From positions 2,666,001 to 2,730,000 of the forward strand of contig NZ_LR215979.1 in NCBI RefSeq assembly GCF_900683735.1: a stretch of 64,000 nucleotides of DNA, given 5' to 3'. Positions 3,343 to 48,877 of the stretch are shown here, piece after piece (positions within the stretch are counted from its first letter, which is position 1; each line of letters starts with the position of its first letter). Made by a program: the position numbers and the translations under genes. The notes beneath the pieces are model-generated. The model made no database searches. It was not told where the DNA came from and saw only the letters and a program-made list of their open reading frames with translations. The DNA is from Fusobacterium ulcerans ATCC 49185. GTDB lineage: Bacteria > Fusobacteriota > Fusobacteriia > Fusobacteriales > Fusobacteriaceae.

Positions 3343-3371
3343 TTGACTTTTTTAATGAAGTATAGTATTCT
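3343..3371 (+). promoter_or_regulatory. sigma-70 promoter of pilus operon 1
   Basis: TTGACT-N17-TATTCT, with the -10 box about 47 bases before the first GEMM-I aptamer. It matches the placement of the three consensus promoters of the downstream cassettes. Confidence 0.7.
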
Positions 3372-3417
3372 CTAATTAGAAACACCTGCTCAGAAAAACG
3401 ATTCAAAGAGTTTTTAT

Positions 3418-3480
3418 AGCAAAATAATGGAAACATTATGACGCAAAGCTATAGGGCCTATTAAAATGGCAGCCAGTTGC
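3418..3480 (+). ncRNA. c-di-GMP-I riboswitch (GEMM-I), copy 1
   Basis: The conserved GEMM-I core is present: a stem capped by a GAAA tetraloop (ATAATG / CATTAT), then GACGCAAAGC, GGGCCT and GGCAGCCAG, closed by P1 (GCAA at 3419-3422 with TTGC at 3477-3480). The stem sequence differs from copies 3 and 4 by paired changes that keep base pairing. The nucleotide before CAAA is G, which I take to correspond to the ligand-contacting G20 of c-di-GMP-selective members; this alignment should be checked. Controls the operon of subunit, phosphodiesterase, tip protein, usher and chaperone. Confidence 0.93.
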
Positions 3481-3531
3481 AATTCTAAAAAATACAGAAG
3501 CTCTCTGTCTTTTTGTGATTGCACTTTTTTT
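3478..3531 (+). terminator. riboswitch-coupled intrinsic terminator, copy 1
   Basis: TGCAAT and ATTGCA form the base of a hairpin with inner AAAAA/TTTTT and ACAGA/TCTGT pairs, followed by a run of seven T. The TGC of the 5' arm is also the 3' strand of aptamer P1, so aptamer closure and full terminator formation compete; ligand should favour read-through. Confidence 0.85.
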
Positions 3532-3577: not shown

Positions 3578-4084
3578 ATGAAAAAAATATTAATTCTTTT
3601 AGGAATATTCATTTCCTCAGTTATTCTCTTTGGAAGTGATAATGAGGCTGCAGTAACTGTTACTGCTGAATTTTTAGCACCTTTAAAAATTGAAGTAGTA
3701 CAAAATGCTGATTTTGGAACTGTTATAGCTCAAGACAATAATACAGTAAAAACAAAAACTGATGGTAAATTAGAAGTTACTGGTAATGGATATGTTACAT
3801 TAAAATGGGCTGATTCAAGTATTGGAACCCCAACTCAGGTTGATTCTTCTCCCCTTAAAGTTATCCTTAGAAATGAAAAAAATTCCAGCAATGAGCTTAT
3901 AGCCTATTTCAAAGTTGGAACTCAACCTAGTGTAAAGAATGATGCAAACTTCATTTTAAAAGAAGGAATTCCTTACACTCTTTTTGTTCCAGGAGAACTT
4001 AGTGTTACATCAAAGACTGCTTCTGGAATTTACAAAGGTTCGATCACTTTCAGAGTTGAATATACTGATGACCCTATGATATAA
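3578..4084 (+). CDS. secreted pilin-like subunit A (DUF4402-like)
   Basis: A 168-aa exported beta-rich protein. I start it at the ATG after GGAGG at 3566-3570; an upstream GTG in frame lies inside the riboswitch terminator. The signal peptide is MKKILILLGIFISSVILFGS. The mature part begins with an alternating hydrophobic strand (EAAVTVTAEFLAPLKIEV), has an N(A)DFG motif, and ends in SGIYKGSITFRVEYTD, the GxYxG...VxY terminal strand shared with the other subunits here. This architecture resembles chaperone-usher subunits and DUF4402 proteins. The role as fibre subunit is inferred from the neighbouring usher and chaperones. First gene of the c-di-GMP-switched operon. Confidence 0.75.
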   Translation: MKKILILLGIFISSVILFGSDNEAAVTVTAEFLAPLKIEVVQNADFGTVIAQDNNTVKTKTDGKLEVTGNGYVTLKWADSSIGTPTQVDSSPLKVILRNEKNSSNELIAYFKVGTQPSVKNDANFILKEGIPYTLFVPGELSVTSKTASGIYKGSITFRVEYTDDPMI

Positions 4085-4187
4085 GCAATACACCTTAAAA
4101 TCATAATTCCAAATTTTTAGTTATAACTTCACTTCACAATATCTTTATAAATAAAAAAATAAAAATAATATAAAAATGGTGGTGCTA

Positions 4188-6302
4188 ATGAAAAAACTAA
4201 TTACAATCTTCTTTATACTTTTTAGTTCTTTTGTCTTTGCAAAAGATTCTTTAACTATAAAGATACCTCTCAACCTTACAGATATGTATCTGTATAAAAA
4301 TTTAGAAACTGGAAAGTATGAAGGTGTTTATGCTGAAGTATTTGAAAAAATTAACACTGAAAAATTAAATTCTAAATATAATTTGGATTATAAATTAGAA
4401 AGTGAAAATCCTGAAGTAATGATAAGGGTTGTTGATTCTTATCAAGATGAACACTATGATTATATTCCTACATCTATTACATACAGGGTAGCTGTTCTAG
4501 TAAAAAACAACAGTAGTATTAGAAAAGTAAGTGATTTAAATGGATTAAAAATTGCTTATATTCCTAATTCTCGTGGTTTGGCAGAATTTGAAGAAAGGTT
4601 TTCAAATATAGTATTTGAAAAAGTTAGTGCTCCAAATGAAGATAAAGGACTGGAATATCTGGAAACTGGAGAAGCTGATGCTTTTATTGCTGTAGATTGG
4701 GCTGAAAGCAACTCTGTTGAAAGTCATATCAGAGTGATAGAATCTCTTCAATATAGAGAACAAATAGCTGTAAGAGAAGATAAAACTGAAATATATAATG
4801 CCATAAAAACTTACATAACTTCCCTACCTTCTTCTAACTTTACAGATATTATAAAAAGAAATAGAATAGATTATTATACTTATCTTTTAAAAGATACTCC
4901 TAATCAAGATATCATAAAAAATAAATTCAAAGAAATAAAGGTACAGCTCCCTAATTCAAAATATATTCTTCCGCTTTTTTATGAAAAAGATGGAAGATAC
5001 AAAGGACTTCTTCCTGAAATATTAAATGACTTGCAAACTATTATTGGAGTTCCTTTTAAAATAACTAAAGATAATGGAGATATAAATGCTTACATTATAA
5101 AAAATCAGAAAAAAACGGAAAAGTATATATTCAGTACTCCATATTATTCAAGTGATATAGGTATAGCAAATAAAAAACTTGATTCATATAGAGCTAGTAT
5201 AAGTGATTTAGACAATAAAAAAGTTCTTGTAGTTGAAAATAGTTATTTTTCTGAATATCTTCCTCAAGTAACTAAAGATATTACTATAATTCCTGTTAAG
5301 TCTGTTCAAGAAGGTCTTAAAAAATTAGCTGCAGGACATGGAGATTACTTTGTAGGATTTTCAAGTGTTATCAGAGGAGCTATAACTAATGAATTCCTTG
5401 ATGATGAGGTTAAAATAGCTGGAACTATAAATGAAAATATGGCTATCAGTCTTGGTGTAAAGAAAAACGAAGAAGAATTAAGTCAACTTGTCAATACAAT
5501 AATGAGAAGTTTCGCAGTTGATAAAACTCTCTCTGACCCTGAAGCTAATAAAAATATTCTTGTAGAAAAGAATTATAAACTTATGATGAAAGTAGCTGTT
5601 CCAACTGTAATTTTTATTATTATATTGATAATAGTTCTTATAAAATCTGAGAAAAATAGAAAAAAAGCTGAAGTCTTAGGTAATGCTTTAGTAGAAACAT
5701 TGGAAATGATAAATCAATTAGACCAGGAAGAAGCTGGAGATCATGCAAAAAGGTTATCTATGTATTCTGAATTACTTGCTGAAAAATCAGGTTTAGACAA
5801 AAAAATAGTATCTGAAATTAGAAAATTTGCTATTCTACATGATTTAGGTAAAGTTATTGTTCCTAATGAAATTTTAAATAAACCTGGAAAATTAACTGCT
5901 GAAGAGTTTAATAAAGTAAAAGAACATGCAATTGTAGGACATAGACTTGCTGAAAAATTAGGATTAGGAAGCGTTGCTGAAAATCTTGTTAAATTCCACC
6001 ATGAAAAATGGAATGGTTTAGGATATCCATTAGGATTAAAAGGAACTGAAATTCCAATCGAAGGAAGAATTGTAGCTTTAGCAGATACTTATGATACATT
6101 AAGACAAGATAAGGCATACAGACCTGGATTTTCACACGAAAAAGCTGTACAGATTATAACTGAGGAAAGTAATATTAGCTTTGATCCTGAATTGGTTAAT
6201 CTTTTCCTAAAAAATAGTGAATTGTTTAAAAAAATCTATGAAGAAAATACAAAATCTATATATCTTGCTGATGAAATCTACTCAGCTATAAAAAATAAAT
6301 AA
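4188..6302 (+). CDS. membrane HD-GYP c-di-GMP phosphodiesterase with two periplasmic SBP_bac_3 sensor domains
   Basis: Predicted sensor enzyme that hydrolyses c-di-GMP. A signal/anchor (MKKLITIFFILFSSFVFA) is followed by two tandem periplasmic solute-binding (SBP_bac_3) domains at about 18-235 and 240-465. A transmembrane helix lies at about 469-488, then a short linker and the HD-GYP domain. Catalytic signatures are intact: LHDLGK with H551/D552, HHEKWNGLGYP at 604-614 (Asn replaces the usual Asp of HHExxDGxGYP) and VALADTYD. I chose the ATG behind GGTGGTG rather than one 12 bases upstream. About 104 bases separate it from subunit A, with no terminator seen. Its ligand is unknown. Being inside a c-di-GMP-activated operon suggests negative feedback (inference). 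Confidence 0.9.
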   Translation: MKKLITIFFILFSSFVFAKDSLTIKIPLNLTDMYLYKNLETGKYEGVYAEVFEKINTEKLNSKYNLDYKLESENPEVMIRVVDSYQDEHYDYIPTSITYRVAVLVKNNSSIRKVSDLNGLKIAYIPNSRGLAEFEERFSNIVFEKVSAPNEDKGLEYLETGEADAFIAVDWAESNSVESHIRVIESLQYREQIAVREDKTEIYNAIKTYITSLPSSNFTDIIKRNRIDYYTYLLKDTPNQDIIKNKFKEIKVQLPNSKYILPLFYEKDGRYKGLLPEILNDLQTIIGVPFKITKDNGDINAYIIKNQKKTEKYIFSTPYYSSDIGIANKKLDSYRASISDLDNKKVLVVENSYFSEYLPQVTKDITIIPVKSVQEGLKKLAAGHGDYFVGFSSVIRGAITNEFLDDEVKIAGTINENMAISLGVKKNEEELSQLVNTIMRSFAVDKTLSDPEANKNILVEKNYKLMMKVAVPTVIFIIILIIVLIKSEKNRKKAEVLGNALVETLEMINQLDQEEAGDHAKRLSMYSELLAEKSGLDKKIVSEIRKFAILHDLGKVIVPNEILNKPGKLTAEEFNKVKEHAIVGHRLAEKLGLGSVAENLVKFHHEKWNGLGYPLGLKGTEIPIEGRIVALADTYDTLRQDKAYRPGFSHEKAVQIITEESNISFDPELVNLFLKNSELFKKIYEENTKSIYLADEIYSAIKNK

Positions 6303-6322
6303 ATACTGCAGAGGTGAATTTT

Positions 6323-7753
6323 TTGAGAAAATATTTATTATTATTGATATTTAATTTTTCTTTGATCTTTAGCTTTAGCAGTACTACTAACGACGTAGAA
6401 AATATTTTTGCTGATGAATTTGGATATCAAAATGAAAAAACTAGTGAGATTCCTGAAACTTTGAATATTCTGCAGGGAATGAGAGTTTCAACCATTGATC
6501 CTGCCATGATAAAAGATAATTATTCTAAAAGGACTATTCCATTGATGTATGATACTCTTTTTACTTTTAATAAGAATGGAGATATAAAACCTTGCCTTGT
6601 TAAAAATTATAAATGGCTGAATGACAGAGAACTCTCTATAGAATTAAAAACTGATATAAAATTTCATGACAAAAGTATTCTTACTGCCAAAGATGTTAAA
6701 GATTCATTAGAATATCTGAAAAAAAATGGAACATTGAAAACTTTTTATTCTGAAATAACAGACATAAAAGTTTTAAACACAAAAGAACTAATAATAAAAA
6801 TTGCTGAAAAAGACAGTCTTTTTTTAACTGCATTGACTTATGAAATTAGTTCTATAGCTAAAAGAAATGAAAAAGGAATAATTGGTACTGGTCCTTTTTC
6901 TATTAAAAGTTTTAATGGAAAAACTTTAAAGTTGGAAAGATTTCCCAATTATTTCAATGGAATTTCCAGTATAAAAAAAGTAAATATTGGAGAAGAAGTT
7001 AATGAAAGTCAAAGACTTATAGCTTTGTTTAATGACAAAGCTAATATTGCTTTAGATGTAACAGAAAAATCTCTAAATAATGCAAAAGAATATGGAATAA
7101 TTGATGATGATGTTGCTGTTGAAAAAAGTGAAGAAACAGAAAGTACTGTTCTTATGTTTGGGAATCAAAAAAATTACTCTATTGAAAGTAGAAAGGCTAT
7201 AGAAAGTGCTGTTCAAAGAACAGCTGACTCTTTTTTTCCTAGTACAATGTTTACTCCCAGACTTTCTAAAGTAAATATTGATTACAACACTTCAAAAGCT
7301 AAAGAAAATATAAATAAAGCAGGATTAAAAAATAAAGAAGTTAATATTATGGTTCTTAATACAAATAATAGTATGGAACAGGCTGAGAAAATAAAAGCCT
7401 CTCTTGAAAAGGCTGGAATGAAAGTAAACCTTCTGCCTCATCAAATAGATTCATACTATATTAAATTTCAGAACAAAGACTTTGATCTTGCTATTTTCAA
7501 TGTTGCATTTAATAGCAATTATACTGTATTTAATCTAGGTAAAGTTCTTCTTTATGATATTGGAGATATGGAAATGTACAATGCTTTACAACCATTTCTC
7601 AAAATAATAAAAGAAGAAAAAGATAAAGAAAAAAGAGATCAAGTATTTGATAAAATAGTTCAACTTATTTATAAAGATCTTCCATATATTCCAATTTCTC
7701 ATGGCAAGACTCTCATAGTAGGAGCTGAAAAATATAAATATATAAAAAGATAA
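6323..7753 (+). CDS. orphan periplasmic solute-binding protein (SBP_bac_5, oligopeptide/nickel type)
   Basis: A 476-aa family-5 extracellular solute-binding protein: N-terminal hydrophobic signal (RKYLLLLIFNFSLIFSF), the STIDPAMIKDNYS opening, then GTGPFSIKSFNGKTLKLERF, a classic SBP_bac_5 stretch. The TTG start fits the AGAGGTG site 6 bases upstream; a GTG nine bases earlier is part of that site. No lipobox is visible and no ABC permease or ATPase gene is nearby, so ordinary uptake is doubtful. It follows the SBP-domain phosphodiesterase by 20 bases and precedes the tip-like protein, so a role as periplasmic co-receptor or ligand scavenger is possible (inference). Confidence 0.8.
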   Translation: MRKYLLLLIFNFSLIFSFSSTTNDVENIFADEFGYQNEKTSEIPETLNILQGMRVSTIDPAMIKDNYSKRTIPLMYDTLFTFNKNGDIKPCLVKNYKWLNDRELSIELKTDIKFHDKSILTAKDVKDSLEYLKKNGTLKTFYSEITDIKVLNTKELIIKIAEKDSLFLTALTYEISSIAKRNEKGIIGTGPFSIKSFNGKTLKLERFPNYFNGISSIKKVNIGEEVNESQRLIALFNDKANIALDVTEKSLNNAKEYGIIDDDVAVEKSEETESTVLMFGNQKNYSIESRKAIESAVQRTADSFFPSTMFTPRLSKVNIDYNTSKAKENINKAGLKNKEVNIMVLNTNNSMEQAEKIKASLEKAGMKVNLLPHQIDSYYIKFQNKDFDLAIFNVAFNSNYTVFNLGKVLLYDIGDMEMYNALQPFLKIIKEEKDKEKRDQVFDKIVQLIYKDLPYIPISHGKTLIVGAEKYKYIKR

Positions 7754-7771: not shown

Positions 7772-8641
7772 TATAAGAGGCTAAAGTTAATAATAGGACT
7801 TATGTTTGTAATATTTTCTTTTTCTTATTCAGGTAATACTGCATTTGATGTTTCAGTAAGAGGAATATACACAAAAGAAGATGTTATAAAAAATCAAACT
7901 CAAATTGTCAATTTTGAAATTAGTGAAGTTACAATAAGAGCTAAAAATAATACTAAAGATACTTTTTTTCAAGTTACAAATATAGAAACTACAAATGAAA
8001 ATTTTATTAATGGGCAAAATTTAAAAATAACAAATATAAATAAAGGTATAGGAAATGAAAATCGCGTTTATTTTAAAGATAATGAAAACAATTCAATTGA
8101 TACCATTAAATTTTCTTTAAAAGGTACTCTTATTTTTAATTGGAAGGAAACTAATAAAAAACCTGACTTAGCAATTGGTTATAGAGGAGAAGAACATCAA
8201 TATAAAAACACTAGTAATTATATAACTGTTGATCTTAGTGATGTAAAGCCAATAACTTTACTGAAAATAAGTGTCAAGGAAGATCTGAATCTTGGAAAAG
8301 GAATAGCTGGTTCTGTTCTTGATACTTCTAATGGCAGTGGTTCTCCTGCAACAGTTGAAGCTACTGGAGAATATGGTAAAAATGTAAAATTTAAAATTCT
8401 AAATCCTGAAAATATAAAAATTACCAGCATTAAAAATTCTCAAGATTCATTAAAAGTTGATGTCTGGTTTGAAAACTCTAATATGAGCAAAACAATTATA
8501 AAAAAATTAAATGAAAATACTAATGAAACTTACACTGGAAAAACATCTGACATTAAAATTCATGGTAGATGTCAATCAAACTCAAATAGTCGTGGAATCT
8601 ATAAAGGAAGTTTTATAGTAAGAGTGGAGTATGATGATTAA
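7769..8641 (+). CDS. two-domain tip-adhesin-like pilus protein
   Basis: About 290 aa if translation starts at the non-canonical ATA, which gives a proper signal peptide (YKRLKLIIGLMFVIFSFSYS); from the first ATG (7802) the N-terminus lacks the basic region. The N-terminal domain (to about 160) has no recognised family. The C-terminal domain (about 160-290) has the subunit pattern: PITLLKISVKEDLNLGKG early and RGIYKGSFIVRVEYDD at the end. An adhesin-like domain joined to a pilin domain, single copy and next to the usher, is the layout of tip adhesins such as CooD/CfaE or FimH. The function is inferred. It overlaps the usher start by 11 bases, suggesting translational coupling. Confidence 0.6.
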   Translation: MYKRLKLIIGLMFVIFSFSYSGNTAFDVSVRGIYTKEDVIKNQTQIVNFEISEVTIRAKNNTKDTFFQVTNIETTNENFINGQNLKITNINKGIGNENRVYFKDNENNSIDTIKFSLKGTLIFNWKETNKKPDLAIGYRGEEHQYKNTSNYITVDLSDVKPITLLKISVKEDLNLGKGIAGSVLDTSNGSGSPATVEATGEYGKNVKFKILNPENIKITSIKNSQDSLKVDVWFENSNMSKTIIKKLNENTNETYTGKTSDIKIHGRCQSNSNSRGIYKGSFIVRVEYDD

Positions 8642-11278: not shown

Positions 11279-12190
11279 TTGAAAAAATCAAAACTATTAA
11301 TGATAATTATGATTTTATGTTTTAGTATATTCGAACTCTCATACTCTGATAACAAAAGGATAGAGAAAATCGAAAATAAACAGATAAAAAATAATATCGT
11401 CTATTTCAAAAATGAATCTGTCCCTTTTACTGGTGAATTCAGAGGTCCTGGCATCAATGAAGAGTATAAATCAGGGATAAGAGATGGATTTTTCAAAGGC
11501 GTTATTTCAGATGAAGGCAAAAGCTTCATCTATGAAGGTAGATATGTGGAGGGAATAAAACATGGTCAATGGGTTATTAAATATCTTACAGGAAGCAATA
11601 GAGCTATTCTTAGATATAACTATGATAAGCCACATGGTCAATGGGCATATTTCTATGAAACTAATAAAATAGAAAGTTATGAAAATTTTGAAGATGGCAT
11701 TCTTTCTGGAAAAGTAGTAAGTTATGATCCAAAAGGAAATGTAAAAACACAAGTAACATACAAAAGTGGACTATTGGATGGAGAAGCTGTCTTCTTCCAT
11801 AGTCCAAGTGTACTAGATACCACAGCTATTTTTTCATATGGAAAACTCAATGGTCCTCTAAAAATGTTTTCTACAGATAATGTCCCACTTATAGAGGGAG
11901 CTTATAAAAATAATAAAAGAGAGAATACTTGGAAATTTTTCTATAAAACAGGGGATATAAAAACTACTGTTACATATAAAAATGGATTAAAAGATGGAAA
12001 AGTCATCATTTATGATAAAGGGGGAGGAATAGTCCTTGTATCTTTATTTAAAAATGGAGATGAAATTGATGATAAGGGAAATGTAATTGAAAAAAATCAA
12101 CCATTTAAAGATGGAATTGTAGAAAGATTTAAAAAATTCAACAGAAATCTAAAATTTGAAAAATATGATAAATTATTATCAGAACTTTAA
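11279..12190 (+). CDS. exported MORN-variant repeat protein (YwqK-like)
   Basis: A 303-aa protein with a signal peptide (KKSKLLMIIMILCFSIFELSYS) and about seven MORN-variant repeats of the pattern Y-x-x-G-x-x-x-G-x-W/x-x-x-Y, such as YVEGIKHGQWVIKY, YDKPHGQWAYFYE, YKSGLLDGEAVFFH and YKNGLKDGKVIIYD. TTG start with an AAGGAGAAG site. It sits 23 bases after the usher and 15 bases before the chaperone, so it is co-expressed with the secretion machinery. No pilus role is known for such repeats; an envelope accessory or stabiliser of the usher is a guess. YwqK antitoxin labels of this family say little about function. Confidence 0.8.
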   Translation: MKKSKLLMIIMILCFSIFELSYSDNKRIEKIENKQIKNNIVYFKNESVPFTGEFRGPGINEEYKSGIRDGFFKGVISDEGKSFIYEGRYVEGIKHGQWVIKYLTGSNRAILRYNYDKPHGQWAYFYETNKIESYENFEDGILSGKVVSYDPKGNVKTQVTYKSGLLDGEAVFFHSPSVLDTTAIFSYGKLNGPLKMFSTDNVPLIEGAYKNNKRENTWKFFYKTGDIKTTVTYKNGLKDGKVIIYDKGGGIVLVSLFKNGDEIDDKGNVIEKNQPFKDGIVERFKKFNRNLKFEKYDKLLSEL

Positions 12191-12205: not shown

Positions 12206-12946
12206 GTGAAAAAAATATTTGTATTTTTTATGACTTTTATCATTGGAATCAATTTATATGCCCTTAATTTTTCTGTAGCTCCTACAAGTTTTAAAGTTGA
12301 ACTTAAAAAACCTGTAACTCAGGAAGTGTATATAATCAATAATACTCCTGCTCCTTTAAGAATAGAAACACATTTGGAAGCTGCTGATTCTTTTGAAAAT
12401 TTTAATTTAAATAATGATATCACTGTTTTTCCTAAAATGATATCTATCAAACCTGGTGCTAAACAAACTATAAGATTCAGAATAAAACCCAACCCAGAAA
12501 TGAAAGATGGTGAATACAGAAGTTTATTAATATTTAAAGAAGTTCCCAAAGAAATAAAAACTGTAATCACTGATAATCAAAATAATAAGGGATTATCTAC
12601 AGAACTTACTTTTATTACAGAAGTAGCAATAGGTGTGTCAGGTATTAAGGGAAAACCTGTAATTGATGGTACAGTACAAGATGTAAAAGCAACTTATGCT
12701 GGAAAAGTTCTTTCTCTTCAATGTAATACTATTTCAAAAGGTAATACTGCTATGAGAATAAACTATATATTAGAAAATGAAAATGGTAATATTATTTCTG
12801 AAGGAAGATTTGGAACAAGTGCAAGATCTGGTGAAAAAAAACTTTTCACTAATATAGAAATTCCTGAATTAAAAGCAAAAAAAATAAAGCTTATATTAAA
12901 AAATCAAGATAATAAAATTATTTATGCTGGAACAAATTCTTTATAA
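12206..12946 (+). CDS. periplasmic pilus chaperone 1 (PapD-like)
   Basis: Predicted periplasmic chaperone that caps pilus subunits before delivery to the usher; 246 aa. Signal peptide to LYA, then the mature start LNFSVAPTSFKVEL shared with three paralogues downstream. The PapD N-domain pattern is clear: VYIINNTPAPLRIE, then FPKMISIKPGAKQTIRFRIK near residues 90-110 and GEYRSLLIFKE. GTG start behind AGAGGTG. It is the most diverged of the four copies at its C-terminus, fitting service to the operon-1 subunits. Last gene of operon 1. Confidence 0.87.
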   Translation: MKKIFVFFMTFIIGINLYALNFSVAPTSFKVELKKPVTQEVYIINNTPAPLRIETHLEAADSFENFNLNNDITVFPKMISIKPGAKQTIRFRIKPNPEMKDGEYRSLLIFKEVPKEIKTVITDNQNNKGLSTELTFITEVAIGVSGIKGKPVIDGTVQDVKATYAGKVLSLQCNTISKGNTAMRINYILENENGNIISEGRFGTSARSGEKKLFTNIEIPELKAKKIKLILKNQDNKIIYAGTNSL

Positions 12947-12961
12947 GATTAAACATAGAGG

Positions 12962-12988
12962 GAAGGGGAAAATAATCTCCTTCTTTTT
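12962..12988 (+). terminator. intrinsic terminator of pilus operon 1
   Basis: GAAGGGGA / TCTCCTTC hairpin followed by TTTTTATTTTT, 15 bases after the chaperone stop. Confidence 0.75.
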
Positions 12989-13099
12989 ATTTTTATGTTC
13001 AGTTTTATATCTCTGACTTTTTTAATTCACTTTCCAGTCCTGCTATCATAAAACTTCTTTTATTCGTATTTTTATAAGGTTTTTATTAAAAATATTTTG

Positions 13100-13128
13100 T
13101 TGACATACATTAATTATTAATGTATAAT
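13100..13128 (+). promoter_or_regulatory. consensus sigma-70 promoter, cassette B
   Basis: Exact TTGACA-N17-TATAAT, with the -10 box 35 bases before the aptamer. Such a strong promoter implies that control lies in the riboswitch rather than at initiation. Confidence 0.9.
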
Positions 13129-13162
13129 TATATTACATAAAACAAGTATATTTTAATTTCTT

Positions 13163-13224
13163 GGCAAAGTAATGGAAACATTATGACGCAAAGCTATAGG
13201 GCCTGTTAAATGGCAGCCAGTTGC
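13163..13224 (+). ncRNA. c-di-GMP-I riboswitch (GEMM-I), copy 2
   Basis: Same core as copy 1: GAAA-capped stem (TAATG / CATTA), GACGCAAAGC, GGGCCT, GGCAGCCAG, closed by GCAA (13164-13167) and TTGC (13221-13224). Precedes subunit B. Confidence 0.94.
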
Positions 13225-13281
13225 AATTATTATAAAAAATATGATTTCATAATCGTGTTTTTATATAATAATTGCATTTTT
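13222..13281 (+). terminator. riboswitch-coupled terminator, copy 2
   Basis: TGCAATTATTATA pairs with TATAATAATTGCA (one bulged base pair allowed) and is followed by TTTTT. Its first bases are the P1 3' strand of the aptamer, the arrangement of a ligand-ON switch. Confidence 0.88.
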
Positions 13282-13329: not shown

Positions 13330-13923
13330 ATGAAAAAATTATTATTATTAGCAGGACTATTGGTTGTAGCTAGTTCGGTTTTTGCTGTTGACAGTACACC
13401 TAAAACTGAAGCTGAAGCAGAAATAGGTGTTCGTGCAGAAGTTTTAGATGATCTAATTATAGCTAAACAAAAAGATGTTAATTTTGGTGTTTTAAGAAAA
13501 GGTGCTACTAAAGATACTCCAGAAGAAGTGGGAGAATTTACTATAACTGGTTCAAAGGGTACAAAAGTACTTCTTTCTGTTAAAGATGCTAATGGTGCTA
13601 CTGATTATCAAGCAGTAAGTGATAGTGGTATTCCAGTAATATTAAGCTTAACAGATGTAACTCCCAATGATAGAAATAAGAAATTTAAACAAATGACTTC
13701 TCTATTAGAAATTTATGATAGTAATGATAATAAAGTTACAAAGGAAAGTGTTATTCTTGATTCTGGTGATTATCAATATGGAACTTCAAAAGGTTTTACA
13801 TCTACCTTTAAAGTTAAAGGTTCTGTAACTACTGATCCAAGCCAATTTGGTGGAAAATATAATGGTACTTTAATGGTAAAAGTTAAACATAATGGATGGC
13901 TTGATGGAAGTTTGAAAAAATAA
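13330..13923 (+). CDS. secreted pilin-like subunit B (DUF4402-like)
   Basis: A 197-aa exported subunit. The start is the ATG after AGGAGGG; the longer upstream frame runs through the terminator and is not translated. Signal peptide MKKLLLLAGLLVVASSVFA. The mature N-terminus AEAEIGVRAEVLDDLIIA is an alternating strand of the kind used for donor-strand exchange, followed by VNFGVLRKG. It ends GGKYNGTLMVKVKHNG, the conserved terminal strand. No cysteines are needed for folding, unlike type 1 pilins. Role inferred from the paired chaperone. Confidence 0.77.
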   Translation: MKKLLLLAGLLVVASSVFAVDSTPKTEAEAEIGVRAEVLDDLIIAKQKDVNFGVLRKGATKDTPEEVGEFTITGSKGTKVLLSVKDANGATDYQAVSDSGIPVILSLTDVTPNDRNKKFKQMTSLLEIYDSNDNKVTKESVILDSGDYQYGTSKGFTSTFKVKGSVTTDPSQFGGKYNGTLMVKVKHNGWLDGSLKK

Positions 13924-13950
13924 GATTAATTAATAAGTTATACTTATAAT

Positions 13951-13979
13951 AAAAACGGCAGCTATGCTGCTGTTTTTTT
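13951..13979 (+). terminator. internal terminator between subunit B and chaperone 2
   Basis: ACGGCAGC-TAT-GCTGCTGT hairpin followed by TTTTTTT, 28 bases after the subunit stop and 21 bases before the chaperone start. Partial read-through would make subunit message exceed chaperone message. Confidence 0.85.
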
Positions 13980-13999
13980 AAATATTCAGGAGGATTTTT

Positions 14000-14749
14000 A
14001 TGAAAAAACTCTTATTATTTTTATTTCTAATTAGTATTTCTATTATTTCATATTCTTTTAATTTTTCAGTAATGCCTACAATTTTCGCAGTAGATTTAAC
14101 TAAAGTATCTACTAATGAAGTTTATCTTACTAATAATACAGCTGATCCTCTAAGAATTGAAATATATCCTGAAAGTGATTCTGATTTTAGTGAAAAATAT
14201 ACTTTAAATTCTAATATTGTAATATTTCCAAAAGTTGTAGCTATAAAGCCTGGAGCTACTCAAACTGTTAGATTTAGAATAAAAGCTTCTCCCAATATGG
14301 AAAAAGGCGAATATAAAAGTCTTCTTACTTTTAGAGAACTTGAACAAAATATAAAAACTGCTCAAACTGGAGAGGACAACAGAGTTAATGAAACAATTGG
14401 AACAAATATAACTATGTTGACTGAAGTTAGTATAAGTGTATTTGGACAAAATGGAGAAGGTCGCATTAAAGGAAGCCTTTCTGACATAAAAATCAATTAT
14501 AATAATAATTATATAAATATTTCTTCCATGAGCAATTCTGAAGGAGACACTTCTTTAAAATTTTTTTATAAAATAAATATATTAAATTCTAATTTAGAAA
14601 CAAATGGATTGTTTGGCCTTACTTTAAGGAATGGAAAAGCACCTATTAGTGTTTCTATTCCAGGGAAAAATTTGAAAGGTAAAAAGGCTGAAATTACTAT
14701 TGTAGATCAGGATGGAAAAATATATTATAAAAAAATTCATACTCTTTAA
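14000..14749 (+). CDS. periplasmic pilus chaperone 2 (PapD-like)
   Basis: 249-aa paralogue of the operon-1 chaperone. Signal peptide, then FNFSVMPTIFAVDL; VYLTNNTADPLRIE; FPKVVAIKPGATQTVRFRIK; GEYKSLLTFRE. The C-terminus LKGKKAEITIVDQDGKIYYK groups it with chaperones 3 and 4. AGGAGG site before the ATG. It should chaperone subunit B (inference from pairing). No clear terminator follows; the next promoter starts about 50 bases downstream. Confidence 0.86.
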   Translation: MKKLLLFLFLISISIISYSFNFSVMPTIFAVDLTKVSTNEVYLTNNTADPLRIEIYPESDSDFSEKYTLNSNIVIFPKVVAIKPGATQTVRFRIKASPNMEKGEYKSLLTFRELEQNIKTAQTGEDNRVNETIGTNITMLTEVSISVFGQNGEGRIKGSLSDIKINYNNNYINISSMSNSEGDTSLKFFYKINILNSNLETNGLFGLTLRNGKAPISVSIPGKNLKGKKAEITIVDQDGKIYYKKIHTL

Positions 14750-14797: not shown

Positions 14798-14826
14798 TTG
14801 ACAGTTAATGAAGAATAGAGTATAAT
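14798..14826 (+). promoter_or_regulatory. consensus sigma-70 promoter, cassette C
   Basis: Exact TTGACA-N17-TATAAT ahead of riboswitch copy 3. Confidence 0.9.
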
Positions 14827-14854
14827 ACAGTAAAGAAGTATATATTAAATATTT

Positions 14855-14916
14855 GGCAAAATAACAGAAATGTTATGACGCAAAGCTATAGGGCCTGTTA
14901 AATGGCAGCCAGTTGC
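14855..14916 (+). ncRNA. c-di-GMP-I riboswitch (GEMM-I), copy 3
   Basis: The core is identical to copy 2 from GACGCAAAGC through GGCAGCCAGTTGC, but the tetraloop stem is TAACA / TGTTA instead of TAATG / CATTA: two positions changed on both strands with pairing kept. P1 is GCAA (14856-14859) with TTGC (14913-14916). Confidence 0.94.
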
Positions 14917-14975
14917 AATTATTTTTAAAGATGCAAGTAATTCTATCCTTACACTTTAATAATAATTGCTTTTTT
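14914..14975 (+). terminator. riboswitch-coupled terminator, copy 3
   Basis: GCAATTATTTTTAAAG pairs with CTTTAATAATAATTGC (minor mismatches) and is followed by TTTTTT; the 5' arm begins in the P1 3' strand. Confidence 0.87.
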
Positions 14976-15028: not shown

Positions 15029-15607
15029 ATGAAAAAATTATTATTATTAGTTAGTATATTAGCAGTATCTGGAATTACTTTTGCTGCTACAACAAGTTCT
15101 GACACAACAGGAACTGTTGATGTTAGAGCAGAAGTGGTAACTCAATTAGAAATTGTTGATACTACTCCTGTAGATTTTGGACGTATTGCTGCTGGTCAAG
15201 AAAATAAACCTGAAGAAAAATCTGGTTCTTTTACTATTGTAGGGTCTTCTGGTAAAAATATAAAAATTACTGTTCGTGATGAAAATAAAAGTGGAAGTCA
15301 ATATATAGATCCTTCTAATGGTATTGATGTAGTTTTATATCAAGATGGAAGTCTAACAACTATAACTAATAAACAAATGATATCTAAATTATTTTTATAT
15401 AATAATTCAGCTAAAGTAGGCAATTCACCTCTTACATTTGGAAGTAAAGCTAATTATTATCCTAATAGTAATAATGCTCAACCAAAAACTAAACTTCCTT
15501 TAGATGTTAAAGGAACTCTTACTGCTGGAATAAATCAAGACATTGGAAATTATCAAGGTATATTAGGAATTAAAGCTGTTTATACTGACCCAGTTATAAA
15601 AAAATAG
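15029..15607 (+). CDS. secreted pilin-like subunit C (DUF4402-like)
   Basis: 192-aa exported subunit. Signal peptide MKKLLLLVSILAVSGITFA; alternating strand GTVDVRAEVVTQLEIV; PVDFGRIAAGQEN; terminal strand IGNYQGILGIKAVYTD. GGGAGG site seven bases before the ATG. Paralogous to B and D but clearly diverged in the middle, so the cassettes may make antigenically or functionally different fibres or successive segments of one fibre. Confidence 0.77.
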   Translation: MKKLLLLVSILAVSGITFAATTSSDTTGTVDVRAEVVTQLEIVDTTPVDFGRIAAGQENKPEEKSGSFTIVGSSGKNIKITVRDENKSGSQYIDPSNGIDVVLYQDGSLTTITNKQMISKLFLYNNSAKVGNSPLTFGSKANYYPNSNNAQPKTKLPLDVKGTLTAGINQDIGNYQGILGIKAVYTDPVIKK

Positions 15608-15622
15608 TATCTTAATTAATAG

Positions 15623-15655
15623 AAAGAACTGTAACTAAAAAGTTGCAGTTCTTTT
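15623..15655 (+). terminator. internal terminator between subunit C and chaperone 3
   Basis: AAAGAACTGTAACT / AGTTGCAGTTCTTT hairpin ending in TTTT. Same position in the cassette as the other internal terminators, but with unrelated sequence; the U-tract is weaker. Confidence 0.72.
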
Positions 15656-15686
15656 ACAATATAACTTTTATTTTTGGAGGATTTTA

Positions 15687-16424
15687 ATGAAAAAAATTAT
15701 TTATTTCGCAACACTTCTAATTCTTTCACTTAATATCTATGCTTTAAATTTTTCTGTTTTTCCTACTGGATTTCGATTTAGCTTAGATAAAGTAATTACA
15801 GAAGAAGTCACTATTACCAATAGTACTTCATCTCCTTTAAGATTAGAGGCTTTTACTGAATCAGATCTTGAATTTAGTGAAAAATATAATATAAATTCTA
15901 ACATAACAGTTTTTCCAAAAACTATATCTATAAAACCAGGTGAAAGGCAAATAGTAAGATTCAGAGTAAAACCTACTTCTGATATAGGAGATGGAGAATA
16001 TAAAAGTTATCTCACATTTAAAGAAATTCCTGGAAAAATAAAAACAACAGTGCCAGAAAAAAATGTTAATGGAACAAACATTGCAATACAAACTGAAATA
16101 AGTATTGGAATATTTGGAGAAAAAGGAACTCCTAATGTTAAAGGTTCTCTTTCAGCTGTAAGTTTAACATATAATGGAACCCATTTAAATCTTCATTTTT
16201 TATCTTTATCAGAAGGAAACACTTCTATTAAGTTCTTTTATTCTTTAGAAATTTTAAATTCCAATTTAAAATCAGAAGGTTTTTTAGGAATCTCTGCTAG
16301 AAATGGAGAAAAAGAAATTTCTTTAATGATGGAAGCTCCAGAAAAATTAAAAGGTAAAAAAGCCAAGTTAGTAATTACTGACCAAGATGGAAAAGTATAT
16401 TATGATAAAGTTCATAATTTATAA
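15687..16424 (+). CDS. periplasmic pilus chaperone 3 (PapD-like)
   Basis: 245-aa chaperone: signal peptide to IYA, LNFSVFPTGFRFSL, VTITNSTSSPLRLE, FPKTISIKPGERQIVRFRVK, GEYKSYLTFKE, and the C-terminal KGKKAKLVITDQDGKVYYD shared almost exactly with chaperone 4. TGGAGG site. Paired with subunit C. Confidence 0.86.
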   Translation: MKKIIYFATLLILSLNIYALNFSVFPTGFRFSLDKVITEEVTITNSTSSPLRLEAFTESDLEFSEKYNINSNITVFPKTISIKPGERQIVRFRVKPTSDIGDGEYKSYLTFKEIPGKIKTTVPEKNVNGTNIAIQTEISIGIFGEKGTPNVKGSLSAVSLTYNGTHLNLHFLSLSEGNTSIKFFYSLEILNSNLKSEGFLGISARNGEKEISLMMEAPEKLKGKKAKLVITDQDGKVYYDKVHNL

Positions 16425-16538: not shown

Positions 16539-16567
16539 TTGACATACATTATTTGCTGGAGTATAAT
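16539..16567 (+). promoter_or_regulatory. consensus sigma-70 promoter, cassette D
   Basis: Exact TTGACA-N17-TATAAT ahead of riboswitch copy 4. Confidence 0.9.
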
Positions 16568-16594
16568 ATATTAAAGAAGTATATATTATAATTT

Positions 16595-16656
16595 AGCAAA
16601 ATAACAGAAATGTTATGACGCAAAGCTATAGGGCCTGTTAAATGGCAGCCAGTTGC
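16595..16656 (+). ncRNA. c-di-GMP-I riboswitch (GEMM-I), copy 4
   Basis: Nearly identical to copy 3, including the TAACA / TGTTA tetraloop stem, and therefore probably the most recent duplicate. P1 is GCAA (16596-16599) with TTGC (16653-16656). Confidence 0.94.
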
Positions 16657-16708
16657 AATTATTTTTAAAAGTGTTATTTTTTGCACTTTAATAATAGTTG
16701 CTTTTTTT
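16654..16708 (+). terminator. riboswitch-coupled terminator, copy 4
   Basis: GCAATTATTTTTAAAAGTG pairs with CACTTTAATAATAGTTGC (one G-U pair and minor bulge), followed by TTTTTT; overlaps the P1 3' strand like the other copies. Confidence 0.87.
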
Positions 16709-16761: not shown

Positions 16762-17307
16762 ATGAAAAAATTATTATTGTTAGCTGGTATATTAGCAATA
16801 TCAGGAGTTACTTTTAGTGCTGGAATGTCTGATAGTGCTGATTTAAATGTTAAAGCTCAAATTATTAAACCATTAAAAGTTACTACTGCACCTGTAGATT
16901 TTGGCATATTAACTCAAGGCCAAGAAAATGCCACTGAAGAAAAAGCAGGTGAAATAAGGATTGAAGGCGAAAAAGGAAAAGTAGTTTCTATTGAATTGGA
17001 AAACCTTGTAGCACCAAATGTTTTAGGACATAATAGTGGTGTGACATTAGTTAATACAAATAATAAAGATTCTACTTTAAATGCAATTCTTTATTCAATA
17101 GATAAATATAGAAATGGTGAAGCAAGAATAGCTATTGGAACTGTTTTTAAAGATAACTTTGCTATAGAAGAGAATAATTCATTAGTTTTTCCTGTTACAG
17201 GAATTATTAAAACTGTTCCTGAAAAGGCAGCTCCTGGTACTTATAATGGAACAATCACAGTTAATGTTAGATATAACTTTGATGGTTCACTTGAACCACA
17301 AAAATAA
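16762..17307 (+). CDS. secreted pilin-like subunit D (DUF4402-like)
   Basis: 181-aa exported subunit, started at the ATG behind GGGAGGG. Signal peptide MKKLLLLAGILAISGVTFS; alternating strand ADLNVKAQIIKPLKV; PVDFGILTQGQEN; terminal strand PGTYNGTITVNVRYNFDG. The motif TQGQENxxEEKAG resembles AAGQENxPEEKSG of subunit C, supporting cassette duplication followed by divergence. Confidence 0.77.
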   Translation: MKKLLLLAGILAISGVTFSAGMSDSADLNVKAQIIKPLKVTTAPVDFGILTQGQENATEEKAGEIRIEGEKGKVVSIELENLVAPNVLGHNSGVTLVNTNNKDSTLNAILYSIDKYRNGEARIAIGTVFKDNFAIEENNSLVFPVTGIIKTVPEKAAPGTYNGTITVNVRYNFDGSLEPQK

Positions 17308-17320
17308 AATATAAATTATA

Positions 17321-17348
17321 AAAACAGTAGCAATATGCTGCTGTTTTT
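17321..17348 (+). terminator. internal terminator between subunit D and chaperone 4
   Basis: AAAACAGTAGCA-ATA-TGCTGCTGTTTTT hairpin (one mismatch) with a T-run, 13 bases after the subunit stop and 25 before the chaperone. Confidence 0.82.
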
Positions 17349-17373
17349 CAACTTAAATTAATGGAGGATTTTT

Positions 17374-18114
17374 ATGAAAAAATTACTTTTTATTGTATTA
17401 TTATTAAATCTTTCTATTTTATCATATTCGCTTAATTTCTCTGTAGCTCCCACAGGATTTTCAGTAGAATTAAATAAACCTTCTACTCAAGAAATTACTA
17501 TTTTAAACAATACAACTGAACCACTAAGATTAGATGCAGTTTTTCAAACTGATTCTGATTTTGGAGAGAAATACAATCTTAATTCTACTCTTACTATTTT
17601 TCCTAAAACAATATCTTTAAAACCTGCTGGGAAGCAAACAGTAAGATTTAGAGTAAAACCTGATTCATCTATTCAAGATGGGGAATATACAAGTTTACTT
17701 ACTTTTACTGAAATTCCTGGAGAAATAAAAACTGTTTCCTCTAACAATAAAAATAATGTTTCTTCAAACCTAAATTTTATTACGAAAATTAGTATTAGTG
17801 TTTATGGATATAAAGGAAATCTTATACACAAAGGAACTTTATCAAATCTAAATTTAGATTATAATGGGAACTCTGCAATTATTTCAGCTTCTTCATTTTC
17901 AGAAGGAAATACCTCTTTAAAATTTTCATATAATTTAAAAGTGCAGGGTTCTGATACTGAAATATCTGGATTGTTTGGAATTTCAGCTAGAGAAGGTAAA
18001 AAAGATATAAGTTTATCAACGCAGTTAGGTCCTAATTTAAAAGGAAAAAAGGCAAAATTGGTAATCACTGATCAAAATGGAAAAGTATATTATGATAAAG
18101 TACATACTTTATAA
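17374..18114 (+). CDS. periplasmic pilus chaperone 4 (PapD-like)
   Basis: 246-aa chaperone: signal peptide, LNFSVAPTGFSVEL, ITILNNTTEPLRLD, FPKTISLKPAGKQTVRFRVK, GEYTSLLTFTE, C-terminal KGKKAKLVITDQNGKVYYD. TGGAGG site before ATG. Paired with subunit D and closest to chaperone 3. Confidence 0.86.
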   Translation: MKKLLFIVLLLNLSILSYSLNFSVAPTGFSVELNKPSTQEITILNNTTEPLRLDAVFQTDSDFGEKYNLNSTLTIFPKTISLKPAGKQTVRFRVKPDSSIQDGEYTSLLTFTEIPGEIKTVSSNNKNNVSSNLNFITKISISVYGYKGNLIHKGTLSNLNLDYNGNSAIISASSFSEGNTSLKFSYNLKVQGSDTEISGLFGISAREGKKDISLSTQLGPNLKGKKAKLVITDQNGKVYYDKVHTL

Positions 18115-18136: not shown

Positions 18137-18169
18137 AAGACTGTTCTTGAAGAGCAGTCTTTCTTTTTT
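18137..18169 (+). terminator. intrinsic terminator of cassette D
   Basis: AAGACTG / CAGTCTT hairpin followed by TCTTTTTT. Confidence 0.82.
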
Positions 18170-18200: not shown

Positions 18201-18229
18201 TTGACAATATCTGATTTTGGGGATATACT
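18201..18229 (+). promoter_or_regulatory. sigma-70 promoter of the GGDEF gene
   Basis: TTGACA-N17-TATACT. The 85-base leader to the start codon holds no GEMM aptamer and no terminator, so cyclase synthesis is not under the same switch. Confidence 0.85.
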
Positions 18230-18313
18230 TATATTAATATATAAACAGTTAAGTATAAAAACTTTAATTCCAATAATAGAATAAAATTTAACTTAAAAAT
18301 ACAAGGAGCAGTT

Positions 18314-19891
18314 ATGTACAATGCAGCTTTAAAAATTTTGTACCCTGACAACTCTCATATTGATACAGCAATGAATAACTTAAAAACGAGAGAAAATTTT
18401 AGTTATGATTTAATCAAATATCATGATTTAAAAGATGAAGATATTGAAAAAGCTGGTATTCTTTTAGTTCTTCATTCTGATGGCTATGAAGCAGAAAAAT
18501 TAAAAAAACTTATGAAAACTAATACAATATTAATCTATATCCTAGAGCATAGTATTCTCACTTCTAATGATGCTCTTTTTAATTTTGCAGATGATATCTG
18601 GTTTTCTTCACTATCTGAAAATGAAATACTATTTAGAATGGAAAAAATAGTTGATGGAGTAAAGCTGAAAAAAGATAAAAATCTAGCTGAAAATTATCTT
18701 AACACACTAATAAATAGTATTCCTGATATGGTATGGTTTAAAGATAACAGAGGTATTCATCTAAAAGTTAATGACGCTTTTTGTAATATCATAGGAAAAT
18801 CAAGGGAAAAAATAGAGGGACAGGATCACTTCACTATCTGGGATATTCCAAGGCCTGAGTATGAAAAAGGTGGATATATCTGTATGGAAAGTGAGGAAGA
18901 TGTTCGTAAAGCTGGAAAGACTATTTTATTATATGAAAAAGTAAAAAATAGAAATGGATTCCGTCGTCTGAATACATATAAATCTCCTTTATATGATGAA
19001 GATGGAGAGATGATGGGAACTGTAGGAATAGCCCATGACATCACTGATTTAGAAAATATTGATATAGAGCTGCAGCTTATTATCAATACTATGCAGTTTG
19101 CAATATTGATTTGCAATAATAATGGTGAAATAATCAATGTTAATAATAAGTTTGTTGAATATTTTAATATTGAAAAAGATGTTATTGTTAAACATAACTA
19201 CAGAAATTGGTTAAAAGAAAGTTTAACTTTAGTTACTACAACAGATAAAAATGGATGTTTTGAATGTAATAATCAAAAAAATTCAAAGCTTCAGATATTA
19301 AGTTGTCATGAAAAAATAATTTTAGATACATTCCAGAAAGAAATAGGAAAATTGTGTATTTTCCGTGATATAACTAAAGAAAGAGAATTAGAAAGCAAAC
19401 TCATTCATACTTCTAATACTGATTATCTCACTGGATTATACAATCGTCGTTACTTATATGAATATATAAAGCACTTTAAAAAAGTCAATCAAATCACTAT
19501 TTTATATATGGATCTTGATAATTTTAAATCTATAAATGATATATATGGACATCAAGTGGGAGATGAAATATTAGTACTTACCTCATCTATTCTTAAAAAA
19601 ATTTTTCCAGAAGATTTAATAGCTCGTATTGGAGGAGATGAATTTCTCATAGTTTCATTGGGAGAATGGGATATAGAAAAAATAATGGATAAAGCTTCTC
19701 TTGTAATCAAAGACTTGAAAGAAGCTTACATAAATAAAACTAACTTCATTCATTTGAGTTCAAGTATAGGTATAACTACAGCTTATAACAAAGTTATTGA
19801 CTTAGACAAACTTATCAAACAAAGTGATGTAGCTCTCTATGAAGCAAAAAGAAGAGGAAAATCACAAATTTATTTCTTACCATTTGAATAA
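18314..19891 (+). CDS. PAS-GGDEF diguanylate cyclase
   Basis: Predicted cytoplasmic enzyme making c-di-GMP from two GTP; 525 aa. Residues 1-115 look like a degenerate receiver-type domain. A PAS domain with PAC follows at about 130-250 (SIPDMVWFKDNRG...GTVGIAHDITD), a second PAS-like domain at about 255-365, and GGDEF at about 375-525. The catalytic GGDEF at 440-444 is intact, with the TDYLTGLYNRRYL and YMDLDNFKSINDIYGHQVGD signatures. The RxxD inhibitory site is replaced by FPED (431-434), so product inhibition through the I-site is unlikely. No membrane segment. Its place at the end of the riboswitch-controlled pilus locus suggests that it supplies the ligand (inference). Confidence 0.92.
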   Translation: MYNAALKILYPDNSHIDTAMNNLKTRENFSYDLIKYHDLKDEDIEKAGILLVLHSDGYEAEKLKKLMKTNTILIYILEHSILTSNDALFNFADDIWFSSLSENEILFRMEKIVDGVKLKKDKNLAENYLNTLINSIPDMVWFKDNRGIHLKVNDAFCNIIGKSREKIEGQDHFTIWDIPRPEYEKGGYICMESEEDVRKAGKTILLYEKVKNRNGFRRLNTYKSPLYDEDGEMMGTVGIAHDITDLENIDIELQLIINTMQFAILICNNNGEIINVNNKFVEYFNIEKDVIVKHNYRNWLKESLTLVTTTDKNGCFECNNQKNSKLQILSCHEKIILDTFQKEIGKLCIFRDITKERELESKLIHTSNTDYLTGLYNRRYLYEYIKHFKKVNQITILYMDLDNFKSINDIYGHQVGDEILVLTSSILKKIFPEDLIARIGGDEFLIVSLGEWDIEKIMDKASLVIKDLKEAYINKTNFIHLSSSIGITTAYNKVIDLDKLIKQSDVALYEAKRRGKSQIYFLPFE

Positions 19892-47574: not shown

Positions 47575-48747
47575 TTATTTCAATAACTTCTTATAACTAT
47601 AGTCTATTGCAAATGCTCCCAATGGAGCAGTTACCAATATAGATAAAACTGCAACTGTCAAAATAAGCTCCCCACAGGCAAGTCCCATAGCCAAAGGTAT
47701 GCCTCCAATAGCTGCCTGTACTGTAGCCTTGGGAGTATATGCCATCATTGTAAAAGCTCTTTCCTTTGTATCAAGTCTGCTTCCTAACAGACAGCAAAAA
47801 ACTCCTGCCATTCTGAAAATTAATGCTCCCAGTATCAATATCACTGCTAATACTCCTGCTGCAACAGCATATTTTATATCTACAGTTGCTCCTACTAATA
47901 CAAAAAGAAGTATCTCAGCAGCTACCCATAATTTTGAAAACTTTGCTGAAAGTCTTTTAGCAAGTACATCATAATTTTTTAAAATCCCTACTCCTATACT
48001 CATAACTGCTATCAAGGCAGAGAAAGGAACCTTTTCTCCTATTTTTTTTTCAAGTTCGAGGAGTAAAAATGACACACTCAATAAAATAACTACCTTTACA
48101 GAATCTCTCATATGAAACTTTTTAAATAATCTCACTAAAATATATCCTGCAATCAAACCAACTATTATTCCAACTATTATCGAAACAGGAACATATACAA
48201 GTTTTATTGCTGATAATCCTCCACCTTTTTCAAATCCCAAAAATGAAGTGAATAGTACAATAACAAATATATCATCTACAGAAGCTCCTGCCATTATAAG
48301 CTGAGGGATACTTTTTCCTGTTCCCCTTTTTTCCTCTATTAATTTCAGCATTCTAGGAACTACAACTGCTGGAGATACTGCCGCTATTACACTTCCTATT
48401 ATAGCAGCTTCCAAAACTGTTATTCCTAAAAGTTTTGGAGCTATAAGAACAGTTCCTGTTATTTCAAATAATGCTGGTAAAAAACACATAAGAAAAGCTG
48501 GTCTTCCTACTTTTTTTAAATCCTCTATATCCATTGCCAATCCTGCTCTTGTAAGAATTATAACTAAAGCCAGCTGTCTAAGACTTGAAGATATTGAAAG
48601 TATTGAACTATCCAAAAGATTTAAAACATATGGTCCTAATATTATTCCAGTTATTATCATGCCCAAAAGAGCTGGAAGCTTCAATTTAGTAAATAAAGAA
48701 CCTAATATCAATCCTAATAAAAATATAAATGCCAGACTTGTTAACAT
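47575..48747 (-). CDS. cation/proton antiporter (CPA2-like) under fluoride-riboswitch control
   Basis: 390 aa, 11-13 TM. The ATG follows AGGAGG; a longer upstream frame passes through the riboswitch and terminator and is not used. Typical CPA features: LARAG-like ILTRAGLAMDIEDLKKVGRPA, GSVIAAVSPAVVVPRML and GASVDDIFVIVLFTSFLG (Asp-Asp ion site). No TrkA domains. The fluoride riboswitch in its leader suggests a role in fluoride tolerance or in restoring ion/pH balance during fluoride stress (established association: fluoride switches control CrcB/Fluc, CLC-F and some antiporters). Confidence 0.88.
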   Translation of the reverse strand: MLTSLAFIFLLGLILGSLFTKLKLPALLGMIITGIILGPYVLNLLDSSILSISSSLRQLALVIILTRAGLAMDIEDLKKVGRPAFLMCFLPALFEITGTVLIAPKLLGITVLEAAIIGSVIAAVSPAVVVPRMLKLIEEKRGTGKSIPQLIMAGASVDDIFVIVLFTSFLGFEKGGGLSAIKLVYVPVSIIVGIIVGLIAGYILVRLFKKFHMRDSVKVVILLSVSFLLLELEKKIGEKVPFSALIAVMSIGVGILKNYDVLAKRLSAKFSKLWVAAEILLFVLVGATVDIKYAVAAGVLAVILILGALIFRMAGVFCCLLGSRLDTKERAFTMMAYTPKATVQAAIGGIPLAMGLACGELILTVAVLSILVTAPLGAFAIDYSYKKLLK

Positions 48748-48762
48748 TTTTCCTCCTTTAAT

Positions 48763-48813
48763 AAAAAAAGCTGATGAATCTGCATAACAAAAAAATGCAG
48801 AAGTCATCAGCTT
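48763..48813 (-). terminator. riboswitch-coupled terminator of the antiporter
   Basis: On the minus strand AAGCTGATGA pairs with TCATCAGCTT and TCTGCAT with ATGCAGA, followed by seven T. The 5' arm is the 3' part of the fluoride aptamer (GCTGATGA), so ligand binding should block terminator formation. Confidence 0.88.
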
Positions 48814-48858: not shown

Positions 48859-48877
48859 AGTATTAAATTTTCAATTT

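Follow-up and report, generated by a model that had tools for sequence, protein, structure and literature searches.

Four c-di-GMP-I riboswitches at a predicted chaperone-usher pilus locus

The window that we analysed, a 64,000-nt stretch of the Fusobacterium ulcerans ATCC 49185 genome (NZ_LR215979.1, positions 2,666,001 to 2,730,000), contains four c-di-GMP-I (RF01051) riboswitches, RS1 to RS4, all on the + strand and scoring 56.5–60 bits with the Rfam covariance model against a gathering score of 35. These are the only RF01051 matches in the 3.84 Mb genome, and they bear out the four aptamer copies claimed by a first-pass annotation of this DNA, which had proposed the alignment to RF01051. 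The four leaders share one layout, in which a promoter-like site is followed by the aptamer, a hairpin with a U-tract and then a pilin-like gene beginning MKK, with promoters and terminators called as consensus matches (sigma-70-type for promoters). The consensus promoters that the annotation had described are present at RS2–RS4 with a 17-bp spacer, but the RS1 site departs from consensus at three of 12 positions. The GNRA-type P2 tetraloop is GAAA in all four copies. Phage records gave no match to the leader, and the idea of a phage origin was dropped as unsupported.

The genes behind RS1 form a putative pilus assembly operon whose order (RS1, pilin, HD-GYP, SBP5, DUF4402, usher, MORN, chaperone) is kept in seven Fusobacterium genomes, six besides that of the window, and RS2–RS4 each precede a pilin-like gene and a chaperone gene. 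Three of the PapD-like chaperones score above the Pfam cut-off and one is a homologue without a hit, while the subunit domains are SCPU, just above the cut-off for two proteins, and DUF4402, below the cut-off for three. The 874-aa protein of the RS1 operon matched neither the Pfam usher families nor, by sequence, solved structures; its AlphaFold model is of low confidence (mean pLDDT 55), but FimD or PapC ushers account for all of the top twelve Foldseek matches, with E down to 1e-14, and we tentatively regard it as a divergent usher. The PapD-like chaperones, the SCPU/DUF4402-type pilins and this putative usher resembling FimD/PapC support a chaperone-usher pilus locus. Among closer relatives the first pilins behind RS1 (3578–4084; L058, L059, L060) share 41–48% identity and the usher and HD-GYP proteins 86–96%, a pattern of pilin divergence beside conserved neighbours that suggests diversifying selection or cassette exchange.

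The HD-GYP gene of the RS1 operon is the only PF13487 match in the genome. Its HD, HHE and GYP residues are invariant in an alignment of seven HD-GYP sequences, and the protein probably destroys c-di-GMP. The stretch between the pilin and HD-GYP genes contains no terminator and no strong promoter. The genome also encodes seven full EAL domains plus one partial hit, which rules out the HD-GYP protein as its only phosphodiesterase, and 16 GGDEF domains. One of the GGDEF genes, a PAS-GGDEF diguanylate cyclase gene, lies adjacent to the pilus locus; riboswitch control of this gene was rejected, as a terminator followed by a separate promoter-like site stands before it and no copy of the gene was detected at the G009 locus. 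By eye, its GGDEF motif is intact and its canonical RxxD inhibitory site lacks the Arg. Elsewhere in the window, a fluoride riboswitch (RF01734, 47.4 bits; 48791–48865, − strand) precedes a Na+/H+-exchanger-family gene (47575–48858).

Table 1. Coordinates of the riboswitch leaders and associated genes in the window
Feature	Position	Strand	Evidence or remark
RS1 promoter-like site, TTGACT-17-TATTCT	3343–3371	+	9/12 consensus match; identical hexamers in RS1 copies of G008, G009, G010
RS1 c-di-GMP-I aptamer	3408–3484	+	RF01051, 58.6 bits; G20 = 3419, C92 = 3480
RS1 terminator (hairpin 3478–3523, U-tract 3525–3531)	3478–3531	+	Shares 3478–3484, including C92, with the aptamer match
Pilin-like protein (DUF4402), first gene behind RS1	3578–4084	+	E 1.3e-4, just below Pfam cut-off
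Predicted HD-GYP phosphodiesterase with SBP_bac_3 sensor domain	4176–6302	+	PF13487, E 2.2e-30; HDLGK and HHEKWNGLGYP motifs
SBP_bac_5 (peptide/nickel-type) binding protein	6314–7753	+	Domain match
Second DUF4402 protein, possible tip subunit	7802–8641	+	Pfam, below cut-off
Divergent outer-membrane usher (tentative), 874 aa	8631–11255	+	AlphaFold model best matches FimD/PapC
MORN_2-repeat protein of pilus operon	11279–12190	+	Domain match
PapD-like chaperone	12206–12946	+	Domain match
Terminator ending RS1 operon	12955–12990	+	Consensus match
RS2 promoter-like site	13100–13128	+	12/12 consensus match, 17-bp spacer
RS2 aptamer	13153–13228	+	RF01051, 57.9 bits; C92 = 13224
RS2 terminator (hairpin 13222–13276, U-tract)	13222–13281	+	Hairpin folding, shuffles
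Pilin-like gene (13330–13923) and PapD-like chaperone (14000–14749) behind RS2	13330–14749	+	Domain match, gene order
RS3 promoter-like site	14798–14826	+	12/12 consensus match, 17-bp spacer
RS3 aptamer	14845–14920	+	RF01051, 60.0 bits; C92 = 14916
RS3 terminator (hairpin 14915–14969, U-tract)	14915–14975	+	Hairpin folding, shuffles
SCPU pilin-like gene (15029–15607) and PapD-like chaperone (15687–16424) behind RS3	15029–16424	+	Domain match
RS4 promoter-like site	16539–16567	+	12/12 consensus match, 17-bp spacer
RS4 aptamer	16585–16660	+	RF01051, 56.5 bits; C92 = 16656
RS4 terminator (hairpin 16655–16701, U-tract)	16655–16708	+	Hairpin folding, shuffles
SCPU/DUF4402 pilin-like gene (16762–17307) and chaperone homologue (17374–18114) behind RS4	16762–18114	+	Domain match for the pilin-like gene, gene order
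PAS-GGDEF diguanylate cyclase (18314–19891) with own promoter-like site (18201–18229, 11/12)	18201–19891	+	Behind terminator 18137–18161

The terminator stem takes the ligand-pairing base of the aptamer

Aptamer bases were mapped onto the Vc2 sequence, the three anchors G20, A47 and C92 being mutually consistent. The numbering is that of Vc2, in which these three are the contact bases (PMC4744006). The first-pass annotation had located a TTGC motif in each copy (3477–3480, 13221–13224, 14913–14916 and 16653–16656) and read it both as the 3′ strand of P1 and as the opening of the terminator 5′ arm. The coordinates are correct, but the assignment to P1 is wrong: with the Vc2 anchoring, the motif comprises U89 and U90 at the 3′ end of P3, the junction base G91 and the ligand-pairing base C92. 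In the four window copies the predicted probability of GCAA/TTGC pairing is 0.01–0.03. Bases 19 and 93 are G·A or A·A, and we found no conserved P1 helix, in that swapping flanks between copies gave pairing as good as that within a copy (permutation p = 0.75); the test would miss a P1 that needs ligand to form. Members of the family are reported to function without a stable P1, as Cd1 shows none and pilM forms P1 only with ligand (PMC9262584).

The second role given to the motif is partly right. The terminator hairpins of RS1, RS2, RS3 and RS4 start 2, 2, 1 and 1 nt upstream of C92, respectively, and lead into the U-tract, so that C92 lies within the stem in all four copies; the stem begins at base 90 in RS1 and RS2, which use only UGC of the motif, and at base 91 in RS3 and RS4, which use only GC. 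Folding z-scores for the four hairpins are −3.3, −7.5, −5.2 and −5.1, with none of 200 shuffles equally stable. The terminator search tolerated a spacer between hairpin and U-tract, a position at which RS1 and the G008a copy have a C. Because C92 is taken into the terminator stem, the ligand-stabilised aptamer and the full terminator would exclude each other, which is an ON layout; the exclusion proposed earlier therefore holds, albeit through C92 and the end of P3 and not through P1.

Static folding of the growing transcript showed that C92 is not in the terminator of RS1, RS2 or RS4 until the distal arm has been made, after which the terminator takes it with probability 1.00 (RS1), 1.00 (RS2) and 0.49–0.95 (RS4); RS3 is less clear-cut. 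When the bases up to 92 were blocked, the window hairpins lost 2–3 pairs, retained −7.8 to −15.7 kcal/mol and ended 2–4 nt from the U-tract, with computed equilibrium differences of 0.9–7.3 kcal/mol. Since the blocked hairpins remain fairly stable near the U-tract, the dynamic range could be small, and this could be most likely in RS3 and RS4, where two pairs are lost.

Base 93 marks two riboswitch classes in the Fusobacteriaceae

RF01051 riboswitches are carried by 37 of 98 Fusobacteriota genomes, all within one family. Our genus sample comprises 21 copies from eight genomes, and 80 further copies bring the set to 101 c-di-GMP-I riboswitches of the Fusobacteriaceae. Within the genus, the terminator hairpin starts −5 to +1 nt from C92 in 21/21 copies and contains C92 in 18; in the other three (G003b, G004b and G006a) the overlap begins only at nt 93. 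Across the family, terminator starts are bimodal relative to C92, falling at −8 to +2 or at +8 to +42, and we define the overlap class by a hairpin start no more than 2 nt after C92. Where nt 93 is not C (69 of the 101 copies), 61 terminators overlap C92, one is separate and in seven copies none was found, whereas the 32 C93 copies include one overlapping terminator, 17 separate ones and 14 leaders without a terminator. The association of base 93 with overlap is strong (Fisher p = 3e-15), although the copies are related by descent and are to be read as two subfamilies and not as independent events. Both classes occur together in single genomes (G054, G055, G059, G041 and G042).

C92 is paired with a G of the distal arm in 58/62 overlap-type members, a count that follows partly from the construction of the class. 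By contrast, the bimodal starts and the covariation of aptamer base 89 with its terminator partner (U-A 15, C-G 8) are not products of how the class was defined. The paired changes in the tetraloop stem that had been taken to prove a conserved RNA structure are a real P2 swap (29–36 U-A/C-G and 30–35 G-C/A-U); four copies with two changed pairs fall short of proof, but the structure is supported across the larger sequence set, where the P2 pairs are kept in 61–62 of 62 overlap-type sequences.

Several of the 14 terminator-less C93 copies have a start codon about 23 nt past C92, which suggests translational control. Six C93 aptamers of this kind (L094, L095, L099, L102, L108 and L114) precede a small protein family (cluster 6) and are likely to act at the level of translation. 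In seven other copies (L159, L160, L161, L163, L166, L168 and L172), six of them with the overlap layout, nt 93 is A and the riboswitch precedes a 96–97 aa protein; the one such protein scanned, that of L168, has a MarR match. L110 (G034 contig 10) contains a second GTTGC-containing stretch, GATAGCCAGTTGCAATTC, within 70 nt past C92, perhaps reflecting a long-insertion aptamer or a mis-set end.

Ligand and sign of the switches

All three contact bases (G20, A47 and C92) are retained in the window copies. Position 20, which the first-pass annotation had singled out for separating c-di-GMP from cGAMP binders, is G in all four, with no instance of the A that marks cGAMP-selective GEMM-Ib members, and G20 and A47 are invariant in 101/101 copies of the family. 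Those GGDEF domains of the genome whose motif is intact have the canonical Asp at the substrate-selecting position, where Hypr GGDEF enzymes have Ser (PMC6456294). Given these contact bases and Asp-type domains, the ligand is likely c-di-GMP and not cGAMP. Sensing of 3′,3′-cGAMP would accord with the placement of GEMM-Ib members in the same Rfam family and with the best-studied pilus ON switch, pilM, which senses cGAMP (PMC9262584), but we consider it extremely improbable, because cGAMP binding has been associated with G20A (PMC7288161) and the genome's intact GGDEF domains lack the Hypr Ser.

As to sign, exclusion of aptamer and terminator is the ON arrangement of pilM and coexistence the OFF arrangement of Cd1 (PMC9262584), and Bc2 of Bacillus thuringiensis is a c-di-GMP-I ON terminator switch that has been tested (PMC4933901). 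From the pilM-like exclusion, the Bc2 precedent, the retained G20 and the canonical Asp of the GGDEF domains, the best reading, and one well supported at the level of sequence, is that the four leaders are c-di-GMP ON switches on the pilus locus. An OFF switch, in which the ligand-bound aptamer would free or favour the terminator as in Cd1, appears quite improbable to us: the C. difficile class I switches that were tested are all OFF (PMC6366702) and the truncated hairpins here are still fairly stable, but in such a switch aptamer and terminator must be able to form side by side (PMC9262584), and in every window copy the ligand base is in the stem, the OFF-like layout being instead that of the C93 class with its separate terminators. 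It is also conceivable, though very improbable, that the leaders have decayed or barely regulate and are carried along with duplicated pilin-chaperone cassettes whose expression is set by the promoters. The near identity of the aptamers between copies, the differing number of cassettes among relatives and the modest thermodynamic cost of 2–3 lost pairs would fit such decay, whereas conservation of the aptamer and terminator stems despite divergence of the terminator loops and pilins, together with compensatory changes in P2, 21–44 and the terminator arm, argues against it.

A proposed mechanism and its relation to known systems

We consider it highly probable that the window encodes four c-di-GMP-I transcriptional ON switches commanding pilus genes, with RS1 also commanding a putative phosphodiesterase, which would close a negative feedback loop. 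The DNA itself shows the aptamers, the overlap and the gene order, and that these are conserved; from it we infer the ligand response, the sign of regulation, the phosphodiesterase activity and the feedback. RNA polymerase would start at the sigma-70-type promoter and make the aptamer first. Without ligand, bases 90/91 to 92 and those following would pair with the distal strand to form a GC-clamped hairpin against the U-tract, and transcription would stop; with c-di-GMP bound, the ligand would occupy C92 and the base of P3 would retain U89/U90, so that the stem could not close beside the U-tract and polymerase would continue into the pilin genes. RS1 would in this way command the pilus assembly operon, with its pilin, HD-GYP phosphodiesterase, binding protein, second DUF4402 protein, usher, MORN protein and chaperone, and RS2–RS4 would command the three further pilin-chaperone pairs. 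High c-di-GMP would thus lead to pili being built and, as RS1 also commands the phosphodiesterase, to its own breakdown.

One close counterpart is the pilM GEMM-I riboswitch of Geobacter metallireducens, which has the same aptamer family and a transcriptional ON layout before pilus genes, and whose terminator likewise takes the 3′ strand of the aptamer and excludes the ligand-bound fold, with P1 not formed without ligand; however, pilM senses cGAMP and precedes another pilus type, whereas in the window the base G20 indicates c-di-GMP and the genes appear to be of the chaperone-usher type (PMC9262584). Bc2, before the B. thuringiensis adhesin gene cap, shares the c-di-GMP-I type and the termination-relief ON layout but is a single copy before a Gram-positive collagen adhesin, and the accessible part of that report mentions no phosphodiesterase in the controlled unit (PMC4933901). 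Cd1, before Clostridioides difficile flgB, belongs to the same aptamer family but is an OFF switch whose terminator coexists with the aptamer (PMC9262584, PMC6366702). The C. difficile pilA1 switch Cdi-2-4 also turns pilin genes on with c-di-GMP through termination control, but it is of the unrelated c-di-GMP-II aptamer class and serves a type IV pilus (PMC6366702). Our literature search turned up no paper on either c-di-GMP riboswitches or chaperone-usher pili in Fusobacterium. The riboswitches of the window belong to the known c-di-GMP-I type, and the new point is the RS1 operon, which links one of them to a predicted phosphodiesterase and a tentative divergent usher. If the proposal is true, Fusobacterium adhesive pili are placed under a second messenger by RNA alone, with a built-in brake.

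Putative feedback through HD-GYP genes

An overlap-type (ON-type) switch lies directly upstream of an HD-GYP gene in seven related genomes, one of them a Cetobacterium MAG in which the same pilus operon follows the switch and the HD-GYP gene. The placement of an ON switch before a phosphodiesterase gene suggests negative feedback and a self-limiting response, since rising c-di-GMP would, if the enzyme is active, induce its own removal through RS1. Switches of the C93 class also precede HD-GYP genes, some of which have an altered GYP motif, and there the sign of the feedback could be opposite. We would give roughly even weight for and against the broader proposal that the Fusobacteriaceae hold two sister c-di-GMP-I classes marked by base 93 and oppositely wired, some of each before HD-GYP genes, together with a self-limiting module, acting as a homeostat or pulse generator, in which pilus genes and the sole HD-GYP gene of the genome come under one ON riboswitch. 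Two architectures in one family, and even in one genome, would offer a natural series on how GEMM-I switches acquire an ON or OFF sign.

Two further arrangements were observed among relatives. In G003 and G004, RS1 is immediately preceded by a second HD-GYP gene (L061 1899–2957 and L062 1882–2940). In G006, a 3531-aa open frame that may encode a giant surface protein has an ON-type riboswitch upstream of it (L064 3748 onward, flipped orientation).
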